The translations under genes and the position numbers were made by a program. A stretch of DNA of 32,208 nucleotides from Thermoplasmata archaeon (GTDB lineage Archaea > Thermoplasmatota > Thermoplasmata > Halarchaeoplasmatales > Halarchaeoplasmataceae), in the NCBI GenBank assembly GCA_019594305.1, contig JAFDTZ010000003.1, forward strand, positions 1-32,208. The letters are read 5' to 3'. Below, piece after piece: positions 125-31,901 of the stretch. Positions within the stretch are counted from its first letter, which is position 1. Each line of letters opens with the position of its first letter. The notes below the pieces were generated by a model. That model did not search any database and had not been told where the DNA came from. It was given only the letters and a program-made list of their open reading frames with translations.

Positions 125-937
125 TTGTCTAGGAAAGAAGTAGACCGATGGCGGAAGGCGAGGTTAAAAGAAGATCTTAGGAATGTACCCTTTTTCATCC
201 TTTTTATTGGAAGTATAAGCGGTTTACTAGCAGGCCTGTGGTTCGGACAAGATATTTTTTCCATGTACGGCTTAGGATCCCTCGGCAAATTACTCTACTT
301 CCACCTCATAGCCACAGGCATATACATATTGTTCATCCACAATGCCGTGTGTGAGTGGAATAACCTAAGGGTGATAAGCGGCATAATTCTACCTCTTGCC
401 CTATTTTCTGAAATAACTTTGTCCACATTGGGTATCTTGGAGTTCCCTTTTTTTATCTACGTAGCTTTTATCTTGGTTTACATATCATTTTTTGATATAT
501 TAAGAGGTCGTGTCAAGTTAAAAGCTACATCATACACTCACGAAAACCCGGATGTTTATCACGACGACGGTTCCGTGAGGTGCTACAAGCGAAGATTGAT
601 CCTGGAACGTTGGAACAACACCAAGTACATAATCGTTTTTTTTCTAAGCTTTGTATTATTGGGTGCAGGGGCTTTGGGTTTTGAAGATATAATGGTATAT
701 CTCGGGCATGATGCCGTACAAATCTTTGTGGTACTTAATATGATCTCTTTGGGATTCATACTGATGACAGCAGAAATGGCATTTACCGAGTTCAAAGAAA
801 GAATGTACATAAGCTCTATCGTAGCGTTACTATTTTGCGAGGCATTTTTCGCTCTGTATGCATTGGGGAGCCTGGTGATCGTGCTCGAAGGAAGCATATT
901 CCTCGGTTCAATTTTTGTGCTTCTAGTCTTTGTATAA
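125..937 (+). CDS. Multi-pass integral membrane protein of unknown function
   Basis: 270-aa ORF with a TTG start and several hydrophobic segments. Confidence 0.7.
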   Translation: MSRKEVDRWRKARLKEDLRNVPFFILFIGSISGLLAGLWFGQDIFSMYGLGSLGKLLYFHLIATGIYILFIHNAVCEWNNLRVISGIILPLALFSEITLSTLGILEFPFFIYVAFILVYISFFDILRGRVKLKATSYTHENPDVYHDDGSVRCYKRRLILERWNNTKYIIVFFLSFVLLGAGALGFEDIMVYLGHDAVQIFVVLNMISLGFILMTAEMAFTEFKERMYISSIVALLFCEAFFALYALGSLVIVLEGSIFLGSIFVLLVFV

Positions 938-1177
938 CCTCTCGACATGCTGATAGAAAAAATTAAAGGAATTTATCGAGAGAACAGGTAACATAGTATG
1001 TGCATAAAGATGAATTTACGGACCGAAAAAGCGAAATTGAGGTTACCTATACAAAAATTATTTATCTTCAGAGTGGTAAGACGGAGTGTATTACTATGAA
1101 AAAAGCCGAGCAACCTGAACTGGTTCCGCTTTTTTTTCATCTCATAGAAAATATGAACCATCCAGACGAGATATGAA

Positions 1178-1516
1178 ATGAAAAAAGATAAGGATCAGAT
1201 CGGAGAACTGACGGGCAGTGTGTTTAGGCTGGAAGAGCTGATAGAGTACCAGAAGGGCGCCATCGTCAGCAGAACATTGGTGGACAAGGATTCGGGTACG
1301 CTTACCGTATTCGCCTTCGACGAAGGCCAGAGCCTCAGCGAGCACACCGCGCCTTTCCATGCTTTCATACAGGTGCTCGACGGTTCATCGAGGGTTACCA
1401 TCGACGGCAAGCCCTACGAGTTAAAAAAGGGTGAAAGCATCATAATGCCCGCGGATATACCACACGCGGTGGAGGCCCTGGCCAGATTCAAGATGCTGCT
1501 CACCATGATCCGATAG
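1178..1516 (+). CDS. Cupin-domain protein
   Basis: Small beta-barrel type sequence with EHTAPFHAFIQVLDGSSRVTIDGKPYELKKGESIIMPADIPHAVEA, typical of the cupin 2 fold. Confidence 0.88.
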   Translation: MKKDKDQIGELTGSVFRLEELIEYQKGAIVSRTLVDKDSGTLTVFAFDEGQSLSEHTAPFHAFIQVLDGSSRVTIDGKPYELKKGESIIMPADIPHAVEALARFKMLLTMIR

Positions 1517-15875: not shown

Positions 15876-19602
<3,727 letters not shown>

Positions 19603-23108: not shown

Positions 23109-25628
23109 ATGTCCCTGTATATGAGCAAGGAATTCACAACTAAAGAAAAGGTTCTTGTTAATCTCCTTGAGTTCTTTTCCGTCAAAGATAGGTATCCGAG
23201 ACCTATTGAAATGACACAAGAGGGTATGGCCGAGAGGACAGGCTCCAAACAAAATACCATATCCTATGCCGTAAGGAATCTGGTGGATGAAGGGTTAATT
23301 TATGAAAAAACAACCAGGGTAAAAGGCAAAAAACAACGTCTAAAGGCATATTTTCTTACAGAGAAAGGTATCGAGGAGGCCAGAAATATTAGGAGTAAGA
23401 TGGCCCACCTTCCGGTTAAAATAGAAATAGACGGTGCGAAAAAAGAAGTACAGGCAAAGGATATAAACATGTACTTCCACACAAGGTACAGATTACTCGA
23501 TATAATACTACACATGGAGCAGGGCATCTTCAAGATGATTAAGTCTAAAAGCGATATTCCCAAGGTGGCCTATCTTCACCATATCGCCGAAAATACTAAT
23601 GTAGATCCAGAAGGATATGACGACTTGATCGGGTGGTGGTCAGGGGAAAAAAAGGTTTATATGGTTCTAGGTGAGGAAGGCTCAGGAAAAACGACTCTTC
23701 TAACCAAATTTGTACACTCTATTATTGAAAAACAAAACATCTTTTATTTTAAAATTAGAGATTGGTACACTCAGAGACACCTCTGGGATCACCTGGCTAA
23801 CTTTTTATCATCAACAGGTGAGCATAAACTATACGCATATTTGGATGCATCCAAAAACATCACCTTTAAAGAGGCTTTGAGGGCATTGATATCTGATCTA
23901 AACCATCTTTCCGATGCGGTTATCATCATTGAGGATCTAGACAGGAATGAAAGTATATCCGACTTGGTATACATGATATGCGATAATATCAAAGAAATAA
24001 AAAAAACTAAGATATTATTGTCAGGAAAACCAGGCATGGGTTCACAAGAAATTGTGGAAAAAATCGGTATGGATACATTGAGCCTGGATTACGATGAATG
24101 TACCAAGCCTATGTTCGTAGAATTAGGTAAAGCATACGATCTGGACGAAGGTTGTGACATCGTTCTCGACGTAGTGTTAGAAAGCAAACTCACCCCCGAA
24201 GAGTTCATCGCTACTGCTTATATGTCAATACACCGTCTTCCGGTTGAAAGGTCGGAGATAATTAAGGTGGGCGAGGTTAACAAATACCTATTTAATGAAT
24301 TATTACAAACTCCATTACTTTCACGCACCGTTGAAGACAAAGTGCTTCTGCACGATTTTGTAGTGGATCGGGTAGGAAGCCGGCTATGGATAGAGGAAAA
24401 GGAGATACTGCATTCCTTTGCTGAAGAGTATTATTATGTTATACCCGGTAAGACGGTAGAAGATGAAATTGAGTTTCTATATCACTCAGTGAGGGCCGGA
24501 GATGTCGAAGGCTTCTTAAAAGGCTTGCACGAATACGCAGAGGACATAATATCGTCCGGGTATAGCAGGCAATTGATTAACGAGATAGAAAGTATAGATG
24601 TTCCAACAGATAAAAAAGATGAAGAAGGTATTATGAGATTTTGGAAGGCTGAAGCATACCGTACAATTAACGAACTTGAAGAGGCCATAGTCTCTTACAA
24701 TGATATATTGGAACTATGTACCGATGAGGAGATAAAAACAAGAGCACATATGGGTATAGCGGCGGTGATGGAGGAACAGAAAAAATACGAATTGGCTATT
24801 GAGCAATACGAGTCGGCTGTTGAATGCACTCATAATGTGGGAAGAAACCGAGAGGCCCTTCTGGGAAATATATATCAAAAATTATCCAATATATACAGCA
24901 GGCAGGGCAGCTTTGAAAAAGCTAGAAAGTCTCTTAAAAAGGCTATTACTTTACTTGAGGAGCAGAATGATTATTCACTATTAACAACATTATATCTTTT
25001 ATCCGCTAAACTAGAAAAAGAAAGCGGTGATCTGAGAACAGCATTGAAATATCTGGAGAAAGGTATGAAGTCGTGGAGACTTATAGAAGAAACCTATAAG
25101 AGAGCAGGAGGGCTGCACGATATCGGCTCCTTCTACAAAGTATTGAGAGAACTGGAAGGTGCCGAAGAGTTCCTAAAGGAAGCCGTCGATACATGCGAGC
25201 AATTTGGATACAATCACCTCAAGGGATTAGCTCTTTTAACCTTGACTGAATGCTACATAGAGAAAGGAGAGGCAAATAAAGCTATAACAAATGCAGAAGA
25301 AGCGCAGGAGATTTTTAATTTCCTCGATATCGATGAAGAAGAGGCATACAGCTATGCATTGTTGGGTCAAGCATATGCTAAAATGGATAAAAACGAAGAA
25401 GCAGAACGAAATTTCAACAGGTCTATCACTATCTATCATAAGATCAATTCTTCATACGCCCTAGGTCTTGTTTACTTTTCAATGGCAAAGCTGCAGGAAA
25501 GATCCGGTAATAAAACGGGTGTAGCTGAGAACTATAGAAAGTCGGTGATCTCATTAATATCAAGTGGTGCCGACGATATGGCCGAGCAGGTTGAAAGGGT
25601 AATGAAGACTGTCCCGCTCAATATGTGA
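23109..25628 (+). CDS. wHTH - STAND-type NTPase - TPR protein
   Basis: N-terminal winged helix (GMAERTGSKQNTISYAVRNLVDEGLIYE), Walker A GEEGSGKTTLL, Walker B DAVIIIEDLDR, C-terminal TPR repeats. Confidence 0.88.
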   Translation: MSLYMSKEFTTKEKVLVNLLEFFSVKDRYPRPIEMTQEGMAERTGSKQNTISYAVRNLVDEGLIYEKTTRVKGKKQRLKAYFLTEKGIEEARNIRSKMAHLPVKIEIDGAKKEVQAKDINMYFHTRYRLLDIILHMEQGIFKMIKSKSDIPKVAYLHHIAENTNVDPEGYDDLIGWWSGEKKVYMVLGEEGSGKTTLLTKFVHSIIEKQNIFYFKIRDWYTQRHLWDHLANFLSSTGEHKLYAYLDASKNITFKEALRALISDLNHLSDAVIIIEDLDRNESISDLVYMICDNIKEIKKTKILLSGKPGMGSQEIVEKIGMDTLSLDYDECTKPMFVELGKAYDLDEGCDIVLDVVLESKLTPEEFIATAYMSIHRLPVERSEIIKVGEVNKYLFNELLQTPLLSRTVEDKVLLHDFVVDRVGSRLWIEEKEILHSFAEEYYYVIPGKTVEDEIEFLYHSVRAGDVEGFLKGLHEYAEDIISSGYSRQLINEIESIDVPTDKKDEEGIMRFWKAEAYRTINELEEAIVSYNDILELCTDEEIKTRAHMGIAAVMEEQKKYELAIEQYESAVECTHNVGRNREALLGNIYQKLSNIYSRQGSFEKARKSLKKAITLLEEQNDYSLLTTLYLLSAKLEKESGDLRTALKYLEKGMKSWRLIEETYKRAGGLHDIGSFYKVLRELEGAEEFLKEAVDTCEQFGYNHLKGLALLTLTECYIEKGEANKAITNAEEAQEIFNFLDIDEEEAYSYALLGQAYAKMDKNEEAERNFNRSITIYHKINSSYALGLVYFSMAKLQERSGNKTGVAENYRKSVISLISSGADDMAEQVERVMKTVPLNM

Positions 25629-29314: not shown

Positions 29315-30592
29315 ATGGCAGAAAAACCACATTTGAACCTCGTGTTCATCGGCCACGTAGACCACGGGAAGTCAACCCTTGTGGGTCGTACCCTGTTCGA
29401 GACAGGGGCAGTCGAAGCTCACAAGATCGCGGAATACAAGAAAAAGGCAGAAGAAATGGGTAAGGGTACCTTTGAGTTTGCCTGGGTAATGGATCGTTTA
29501 AAGGAAGAAAGAGAACGAGGTCTTACGATAGACGTAATGCACCAGCGGTTCGACACCGATAAGTATTATTTCACAATCATAGACGCCCCAGGACACCGAG
29601 ATTTTGTAAAAAACATGATCACAGGTACTAGCCAAGCAGACGCTGCAGTTATGGTTGTAGCCGCACCCGAAGGTATCATGGCTCAAACAAGGGAACACGC
29701 ATTCCTTGCAAGAACATTAGGCGTAGGTCAGTTAATAGTTGCAGTTAACAAGATGGACGCGACAAAACCGGAGTACAGCGAAGAAAGATTCAATGCTGTG
29801 AAAGATGATATGACCAAGTTGCTTAAGCAAATTGGTTACAAGGATGAACAATATCAAATACTTCCATTAAGTGGACTCCAGGGTGATAATGTTAAAGAAA
29901 AGAGTGATAATTTGCCTTGGTGGGACGGAACACAGTTCCTTAAAGCAATCGATAATTTGAATGTTCCGGAGAAACCCATCAACAAACCACTTAGGTTACC
30001 CGTGCAGGACGTATACACTATTACCGGAATCGGTACTGTCCCTGTAGGAAGAGTTGAAACAGGCGTGATGAAACCCGGGGACAAGATAATGTTCAATCCT
30101 GCGAATGTTACAGGAGAGGTAAAATCTATAGAACAGCATCACGAACAGATCCCAAAAGCTGAACCCGGCGATAACTGCGGATTCAACGTTAGAGGTGTAG
30201 GTAAGAACGACATTAGAAGAGGCGATGTTGCAGGACCTGTCGACAACCCACCAACTGTTGCAGAAACATTCGATGCCCGCATCATCATCCTAGACCATCC
30301 AAGTGTAGTCACCGTAGGATATACACCGGTGTTCCATGCCCATACGGCCCAGGTAGCTTGCACTTTCATAGAGTTAAAGCAAAAACTGAATCCTAGGACC
30401 GGAGAGGTAGTTGAAGAGAATCCAACCATCCTCAAAAATGGCGATGCCGCAATAGTGACCGTGAAGCCCACAAGGTTGTTCTCACTTGAGACTGCAAAGG
30501 ACTTCCCGGAGATGGCAAGATTCGCTATTAGGGACATGGGGAAAACAGTTGCTGCGGGACAGTGCATCAGCATTGTGCCGAAGAAAATGTAA
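29315..30592 (+). CDS. tuf: Translation elongation factor 1 alpha (aEF1A)
   Basis: [48 protein letters not shown]. Confidence 0.98.
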
Positions 30593-30954: not shown

Positions 30955-31062
30955 TATTGGACTCATACTTTCGTTCACGTATCTTATAATAGATTATGTA
31001 ATGAAGGTTAGACCTATCTACTTTCCAAAACCCTTATAGATATGTACATTATAATCTGGTTG

Positions 31063-31103
31063 TTCGCAAACAGCTCATTTCGGGCCCATAGATATTGGCT
31101 CAA
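31063..31103 (+). repeat. tRNA-Ala 5'-end fragment copy 1 (TTCGCAAACAGCTCATTTCGGGCCCATAGATATTGGCTCAA)
   Basis: Shares TTCGCAA(A)CAGCTCATTTCGGGCCCATAGAT with the intact tRNA start and ATTGGCTCAA with copy 2. Confidence 0.85.
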
Positions 31104-31202
31104 TCAAAGATTCGCAGGGAACTTGTTCCTGCTCTCGTCAATTTAAAAAAATTGACGATTCAGCTCATCTATGCACCCACTTATTCACTCACGTTCATTC
31201 GT

Positions 31203-31224
31203 GGGCCCATAGACATTGGCTCAA
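31203..31224 (+). repeat. tRNA-Ala 5'-end fragment copy 2 (GGGCCCATAGACATTGGCTCAA)
   Basis: 21/22 identity to 31082-31103. Confidence 0.85.
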
Positions 31225-31274
31225 CAAAAAGTGTTCAGCCTATCGATGGCCCCTCATTCGCAACAGCTCATTTC

Positions 31275-31348
31275 GGGCCCATAGATCAGACCGGAAGATC
31301 GCGACCTTTGCAAGGTTGAGGCCGCGGGTTCAAATCCCGCTGGGTCCA
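31275..31348 (+). tRNA. tRNA-Ala (anticodon UGC)
   Basis: Cloverleaf: GGGCCCA/TGGGTCC acceptor with G3-U70, D arm GATC/GATC, anticodon arm CGACC-TTTGCAA-GGTTG, T arm GCGGG-TTCAAAT-CCCGC, discriminator A, no encoded CCA. Confidence 0.93.
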
Positions 31349-31475
31349 CTCAACTTCGTTTCGTGTCCCATTCGGGATTTGAAAACACGTGGGAACAAGT
31401 TTCCACTACTCACAAATTTTCGCTGAAAATTTGTTCGTCCCGCTGGGTGAGTTTAATTTGATAAACGAGCTATTA
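31341..31475 (+). repeat. Post-tRNA repeat unit 1
   Basis: TGGGTCCACTCAAC...GTTTCGTGTCC...ATTCGGGATTT...TTCGTCCCGCTGGGTGAGTTT...AAACGAGCTATT, matching landmarks in unit 2. Confidence 0.75.
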
Positions 31476-31607
31476 GAAAGCGCCAGCTTTGTTATTGGTC
31501 CATTAAAACTTTTTTTAGTGGACATCGAAAAGTTCGTTAGATCTTTTGGAGGGGTCCATTTATTTTCGAAGAAAATCAATGGGCACAGAGAATGCGATAG
31601 CTTTCTT

Positions 31608-31845
31608 TGGGGTCCACTCCACTATGTTTCGTGTCCTCATCGGGATTTTTCAACTCGTTGGAATTATAAATTCCACTTGCTCACAAAACATAGTTTTGTT
31701 CAACAATGGGGGACACGTTTCCCACGGTCACAAATTTTCGGTGAAAATTTGTTGTAAACTGGAATCGCTGATTCCAGTAATTCACAAATCGAGAACGATT
31801 TGTTCGTCCCGCTGGGCGAGTTTCCACATGTAAACGAGCTATTTG
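31608..31845 (+). repeat. Post-tRNA repeat unit 2 (longer)
   Basis: TGGGGTCCACTCCAC...GTTTCGTGTCC...ATCGGGATTT...TTCGTCCCGCTGGGCGAGTTT...AAACGAGCTATT. Confidence 0.75.
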
Positions 31846-31901
31846 AGAGAGCATCTGATTTTGATAGACCAAATACCCAGTTCATGAAAAAAGAAAGGGC
31901 G

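Follow-up and report, generated by a model that had tools for sequence, protein, structure and literature searches.

The question raised by this locus is whether the dense array of short hairpins around its tRNA-Ala gene is a structured non-coding RNA (ncRNA) or a family of palindromic repeats, the two candidates named in an initial annotation. The stretch analysed, here called the window (32,208 nt), is the whole of contig C38 of an archaeal draft genome (G000; 2.08 Mb in 197 contigs), and its end comprises the genes for aEF-1A (29315-30592), ribosomal protein S10 (up to 30954) and tRNA-Ala(TGC) (31275-31348). The nearest named relatives of the aEF-1A belong to Thermoplasmata MAGs, including Ca. 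Saliniplasma halalkaliphilum (82% identity), which NCBI places in Ca. Halarchaeoplasmatales, and isolate names trace many of these relatives to hypersaline and soda lakes. The family sample (f1) comprised 16 genomes. Elsewhere in the window, an 839-aa protein with AAA/STAND-like NTPase and TPR repeats (23109-25628) adjoins two AIRS-family genes, and a Family-X DNA polymerase with a PHP domain adjoins an NAD-dependent DNA ligase (LigA; 15876-19602), a bacterial-type ligase in an archaeal host.

All nine hairpins claimed for 31114-31803 were found at their coordinates; seven are perfect (stems of at least 7 bp), the hairpin at 31114-31132 being bulged and that at 31389-31406 carrying a G.T pair, a wobble in tRNA-sense RNA. 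The region 31060-31850 has the highest hairpin density in the window: it contains seven perfect stems of 7 bp or more, where dinucleotide shuffles gave 0.38 (maximum 3 in 300), and five of 8 bp or more, where they gave 0.085. RNA folding of these 791 nt, which had been proposed as a check, gave z of about -9 on either strand, as palindromes would. Above the Rfam gathering score, the tRNA alone matched in the window and tRNAs alone in 19 further loci, and a known ncRNA was rejected for these loci.

The main feature of the locus was missing from the initial annotation: the flanks hold repeated copies of the tRNA-Ala's own 5' and 3' ends. The 5'-end copies (GGGCCCATAGA) lie at 31082 and 31203, and the 3'-end copies read GGTCCA at 31497, 31553 and 31611 and TCCCGCTGGG at 31438 and 31807. 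The parts of the array are given below, those starting at 31033, 31203, 31498, 31551 and 31641 as read from the sequence, the last also from shuffles.

31033..31038, plus strand: TATA-like CTTATA in CCAAAACCCTTATAGATATGTA, likely promoter, ahead of both 5' units
31082..31178, plus strand: 5' unit A, a copy of tRNA nt 1-12 (GGGCCCATAGAT), two hairpins (GCAGGGAAC..GTTCCTGC, then CGTCAATTT..AAATTGACG) and the closing complement ATCTATGcaCCC
31203..31253, plus strand: 5' unit B, a tRNA 5'-end copy starting GGGCCCATAGA, closed by ATGGCCCC
31262..31274, plus strand: leader linker AACAGCTCATTTC (repeat family D5), with a second copy at 31069-31081
31275..31348, plus strand: tRNA-Ala(TGC), intact, discriminator A at 31348 (ARAGORN; Rfam RF00005, 63 bits)
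31373..31448, plus strand: 3' unit 1, T-arm mimic CGGGATTTGAA, two hairpins (GTGGGAAC..GTTTCCAC, then ACAAATTTTC..GAAAATTTGT) and TTCGTCCCGCTGGGT, a copy of the tRNA 3' part
31472..31502, plus strand: trailer hairpin of the TTAGAA..TTCTGA type (window form ATTAGAAAGCgccaGCTTTGTTAT), then the 3'-end copy GGTCCA
31498..31523, plus strand: hairpin GTCCATTAAAA..TTTTAGTGGAC, its 5' arm containing a tRNA 3'-end copy
31551..31616, plus strand: further 3' unit, GGGGTCCA, hairpins GTCCATT..AATGGGC and AGAATGC..GCTTTCT, then the next GGGGTCCA
31641..31817, plus strand: 3' unit 2, CGGGAT...TCCCGCTGGGC around three tandem hairpin pairs

In 5' unit A, the complement closes an outer stem that is present in the MFE fold (z -4.4), and the linker together with the tRNA 5' end forms a 25-nt perfect direct repeat. 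Since CTTATA precedes both 5' units, these would fall within the pre-tRNA leader. The three pairs of 3' unit 2 (31659-31699, ~31706-31752 and 31758-31803) alternate GGAA..TTCC and ACAAA..TTTGT types.

The same association with tRNA genes was found across the genome and the family. Tight hairpins (stem of at least 7, loop of 3-5) occurred at 2.03/kb within 450 nt of a tRNA versus 0.223/kb elsewhere (9.1-fold, binomial p=5e-29) in a sample of 729 kb (35% of the genome), for part of which tRNA contigs were deliberately chosen, so that more tRNAs were included and the near/far contrast was unaffected. This background density and the shuffles together rule out a chance origin. The sample contained six clusters of three or more hairpins, each no more than 318 nt from a tRNA gene (two at Glu loci, the others at Gln/Arg, Val, Ala and a tRNA identified in the Rfam scan); one cluster contig, C2, is probably misbinned from a strain like that of genome G001, with which it shares 98.6% identity over 1.6 kb (L186), other shared stretches being mostly around 65-85% identical. 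Upstream arrays repeat the initial ~12 nt of the tRNA that they flank, downstream arrays its last 7-20 nt, and each copy closes around one or more hairpins. Among 142 upstream and 131 downstream tRNA flanks from five family genomes, an own 3'-end copy (12 nt, no more than 2 mismatches) was found downstream of 21.4% of tRNAs versus 0.8% in the flanks of other tRNAs, and an own 5'-end copy upstream of 14.8% versus 1.5%; controls for own-end copies on the wrong side were negative in the same five genomes. In the outgroup genome G027, no own 3'-end copy and one own 5'-end copy were found, and outside the family the 791-bp query matched only at the tRNA, which together rule out a class-wide feature. 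In all searches made, the tRNA-anchored hairpin units were restricted to one archaeal family. About 10 of the 37 tRNA genes are no farther than 250 nt from a contig end, versus about 1.8 expected by hand calculation (contigs C123, C190, C146, C89, C2, C179, C166, C118 and C30 of this genome have tRNAs near their ends); from this crowding, the arrays seem to cause breaks in assemblies and may conceal tRNAs in these MAGs.

Several unit types were recognised around other tRNAs. The 5' units consist of tRNA nt 1-12 and one or two hairpins, to which the Ala, Leu and Gln units add a complement of the tRNA 5' end (for example GGGCCCATAGAT...ATCTATGcaCCC and GCGGGGGTAGC...CTCCCCGC); the reverse complement of the 5' end showed no general upstream enrichment in the five family genomes, so the closing complement is not universal. 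The units of tRNA-Arg(TCT) and tRNA-Met comprise a longer 5' half that extends roughly as far as the anticodon loop and carries a double hairpin within its D-stem. Acceptor-type 3' units contain the tRNA 3' end, a hairpin with a 3'-end copy in its 5' arm, a TTAGAA..TTCTGAC hairpin and the next copy (four stand in tandem at tRNA-Val, locus L158), and T-arm 3' units, of which the window holds two, contain a T-stem-like strand, 1-3 hairpins or hairpin pairs, and the T-stem 3' strand with the acceptor strand. Hairpins were also found inside tRNA-like sequences: in pseudo-tRNA-Ala copies a double hairpin sits within the T-loop itself (L036, L045 and L035/L169), L045 has a further double hairpin in the anticodon loop at position 37/38, and L163, L170 and L336 have one in the D-stem. 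A functional-looking tRNA-Met of genome G004 (L366, 1211-1431) contains an intron of ~150 nt with four array-type hairpins. Arrays of the same style without a nearby tRNA were seen at L367 (~1370-1500) and L374 (minus strand, ~1455-1620), with no Rfam match. At 600-1500 of L190 (contig C6), two near-identical units (CCACCAGTC...GACTGGTGG) stand on either side of an IS200-type TnpA gene (759-1235, minus strand). The arrangement lies downstream of a threonyl-tRNA synthetase-like ORF and seems to intrude into a further ORF.

The evidence makes the hairpins a tRNA-anchored unit family around many tRNAs in all 16 family genomes, not a lone ncRNA at the tRNA-Ala gene. The choice offered at the outset, structured ncRNA or palindromic repeat family, stands, except that a stand-alone ncRNA of one locus is not what is present.

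That structure rather than sequence is maintained, as initially proposed, was borne out in two places. Each of the 16 family genomes contains the trailer motif GTTAGAA-N4-20-TTCTGAC, usually in several copies. Of 284 other Thermoplasmata, 9 have it, with a single copy apiece, which is roughly what the reversed control gave. Within the family, 25 copies lie downstream on the tRNA strand, 2 antisense and 2/3 upstream. Its inner arms covary in the family, with 43/45 Watson-Crick pairs at the first pair against 17.9 expected from column make-up, and 33/42 against 12.8 and 24/27 against 7.0 at two further pairs, several pair types being represented; outside the family, inner-arm covariation was not found. 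At the third pair, every one of the 29 directional motifs has T.G and none has T-A (both strands were scanned, the 29 C.A cases being the same motifs on the other strand), which gives the trailer hairpin a direction. In one-mismatch trailer stems, G.U outnumbered A.C by 20:6, in hairpins that are only partly independent of each other. The second place is the 86-nt unit that follows tRNA-Ala, represented in the window by 3' unit 1, which is conserved across several genera and gave a near gap-free alignment of 14 distinct copies from family genomes. In this alignment 92.6% of cells are paired and 9 of 23 pairs have changed on both sides; double-changed cells number 29 versus 7.7 +/- 2.4 in shuffles (none of 500 as high), and slid controls gave 5 at most. 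Compensatory changes at homologous positions, by which a structured RNA is recognised, are therefore present in this unit. The unpaired stretch ATTTGAAAA is invariant, and the outer stem tracks the tRNA, the T-stem change CCCGC to CCCAC being accompanied by a change in the partner strand (C-G to U-A, 3 sequences).

As the best explanation, which we would place a little short of an even chance, the sequences suggest structured leader and trailer modules of the pre-tRNA, formed by partial tRNA duplications with hairpin-bearing loops and transcribed with the tRNA. The outer arms hold the tRNA-end copy and the hairpins take the place of the D- or T-loop. From the apparent position of the units between promoter and terminator, they would be transcribed as leader, trailer and, in some tRNAs, intron, and RNase P and tRNase Z would cut them away. 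They would have originated by partial duplication of tRNA ends, into which paired hairpins then inserted and spread, and would be retained because each folds independently as a local RNA structure. Their likely role would be in pre-tRNA folding and processing, with the extra tRNA ends locked in stems of their own, and the trailer hairpin, in which U.G is invariant, may be a recognition or boundary element. In favour of this reading are the tRNA linkage of the hairpins, own-end copies confined to the correct side, the directional, family-restricted trailer hairpin and the covariation; further points in favour of RNA are the hairpins in an intron, the promoter-like CTTATA before the 5' units and the G.U bias of trailer stems. 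For plain tRNAs in this family, TATA is most frequent at -40 to -31, and in several relatives, at many tRNA-Ala loci, the same CTTATA motif stands ahead of the outermost 5' unit; this displacement is clear for tRNA-Ala and is not general (13 of 48 loci). Counted against RNA modules were the near-equal folding of both strands, the strongly differing array contents between species of one genus, one-mismatch leader stems with no G.U bias (6 versus 9), and the units away from tRNAs, near the IS200 transposase of L190 and at L367 and L374. Palindrome-correcting mutation in DNA could also be a source of paired changes. A further reading, in which the arrays form a cis-acting pre-tRNA switch that places the maturation of individual tRNAs under RNA-folding control, for instance by salt or temperature, appears distinctly improbable; the order would be decoy 5' end, hairpins, anti-5' end, tRNA, anti-3' end, hairpins and decoy 3' end, and the extra ends and complements would swap strands with the acceptor stem and T-arm of the true tRNA.

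We consider the leader/trailer modules the most likely reading of the sequences, with mobile, tRNA-seeking palindromes a close rival. The latter, a substantial possibility though the less probable of the two, would be selfish short palindromes of one or two types, inserted into tRNA-derived sequence (D-stem, anticodon loop, T-loop) by an IS200/IS605 TnpA-like single-strand transposase and piling up in duplicated, dispensable tRNA pieces. Such insertion would account for the double hairpins in the T-loops of the pseudo-tRNA-Ala copies, the 37/38 insert of L045 and the D-stem inserts of L163, L170 and L336, as well as for the three tandem hairpin pairs within one T-loop of the window and the fast turnover of arrays inside a genus. 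A Y1_Tnp is present, and one of two intact genes, on contig C6, lies between two unit copies; however, the second (C107) has no surrounding hairpin array, and no target-site duplication was demonstrated. Random insertion would not predict the fixed sense strand and the tRNA-end copies on the correct side, and the conservation of the tRNA-Ala 86-nt unit across genera also speaks against it. The two readings are compatible, in that the hairpins may have arrived as mobile elements and then been kept as RNA structure.

Integrative elements are another candidate source of the tRNA-end copies. If these were att half-sites and the hairpins element remains, which we regard as unlikely, the many 3' copies that run from the T-loop to the 3' end (Cys, Asp, Gly, Arg, Met) would be att duplications such as SSV-type and pNOB8-type elements leave, and Caldiarchaeum does have a 5' tRNA fragment beside an intact tRNA (PMC3293823). 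The units, however, are 50-180 nt long, tandem and without coding remnant (direct repeats were present in the flanks examined, with no coding element between them), and they carry upstream of the copy a T-stem partner strand that att half-sites do not have. A single integrase-domain protein was found in the genome, the lone PF00589 protein, which adjoins tRNA-Lys. Phage records gave no match and plasmid records no similar array, the plasmid matches being to the tRNA itself only, so that a phage or plasmid origin was rejected; the exact hairpin pattern was absent from viral contigs. Integrases cross over at tRNA loops, and the mimics flank both sides of the tRNA and are broken at the loops, as would be expected of decoy attachment sites selected to shield the true tRNA. 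This agrees with the idea of Randau and Soll, as cited in PMC3293823, that a disrupted tRNA blocks integration, yet no element was found inside a decoy and many copies are just 7-9 nt, below att-site length, which leaves decoys very improbable. Ordinary intrinsic terminators or chance palindromes are scarcely credible: T-runs are frequent in trailers after the tRNA 3' end, but many units lie upstream of the tRNA, and the density excess, the own-end copies and the covariation would be left unexplained.

Several known systems share some of these features. REP/BIME elements with RAYT (Y1) likewise have hairpin pairs, and one Y1 gene stands here between two unit copies; REP elements, however, are dispersed in intergenic DNA and lack tRNA-end copies, and of the GTAG/GGAG foot typical of their hairpins only occasional GTAG was seen here. 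Rickettsia palindromic elements are palindromic inserts that invade genes and RNA genes, as one dispersed family of 100-150 nt not made from neighbouring tRNA ends. Integron attC core sites read RYYYAAC / GTTRRRY, and as an attC core GTTAGAA...TTCTGAC departs from GTTRRRY at its final base, and its arms stand in the opposite order. Archaeal tRNA introns resemble the hairpin inserts at 37/38, in the D-arm and in the T-loop of tRNA-like copies, although such copies, where the insert is in the D- or T-loop, are incomplete and do not look functional. The small inverted repeats of mitochondria (placozoans, sponges, yeasts, chytrids) are likewise short perfect hairpins of related types that proliferate, and in placozoans they lie inside the tRNA gene trnS (PMC7813641); they are spread over intergenic DNA, whereas the archaeal units are tied to tRNA genes with own-end copies and carry a side- and strand-specific motif. 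The tRNA-Thr of Caldiarchaeum (PMC3293823) has tRNA fragments beside an intact gene and a link to intron gain, as in our arrays, although a 1.8-kb coding element lies there between fragment and gene, where tandem non-coding units occur here at many tRNAs. The literature searched describes palindromes that lie in tRNA genes of organelles (PMC7813641) and a tRNA fragmented by an integrative element (PMC3293823), but gave no account of such hairpin arrays or of long hairpin-bearing tRNA leaders, an absence that is weak evidence because the search was largely outside subscription journals.

The arrangement is lineage-specific and structurally conserved, and it surrounds many tRNA genes of a salt-lake archaeal family. 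tRNA genes are usually viewed as compact, with short leaders and trailers; here, family-wide, they have long structured flanks built from each tRNA's own pieces. Under either of the leading readings, the arrays seem to hinder assembly. If the arrays are RNA elements, pre-tRNA organisation would gain a new layer; if instead they are mobile palindromes, they would be a selfish family specialised on tRNA sequence and a route by which tRNA fragments, introns and pseudogenes arise, a question in archaeal tRNA evolution.
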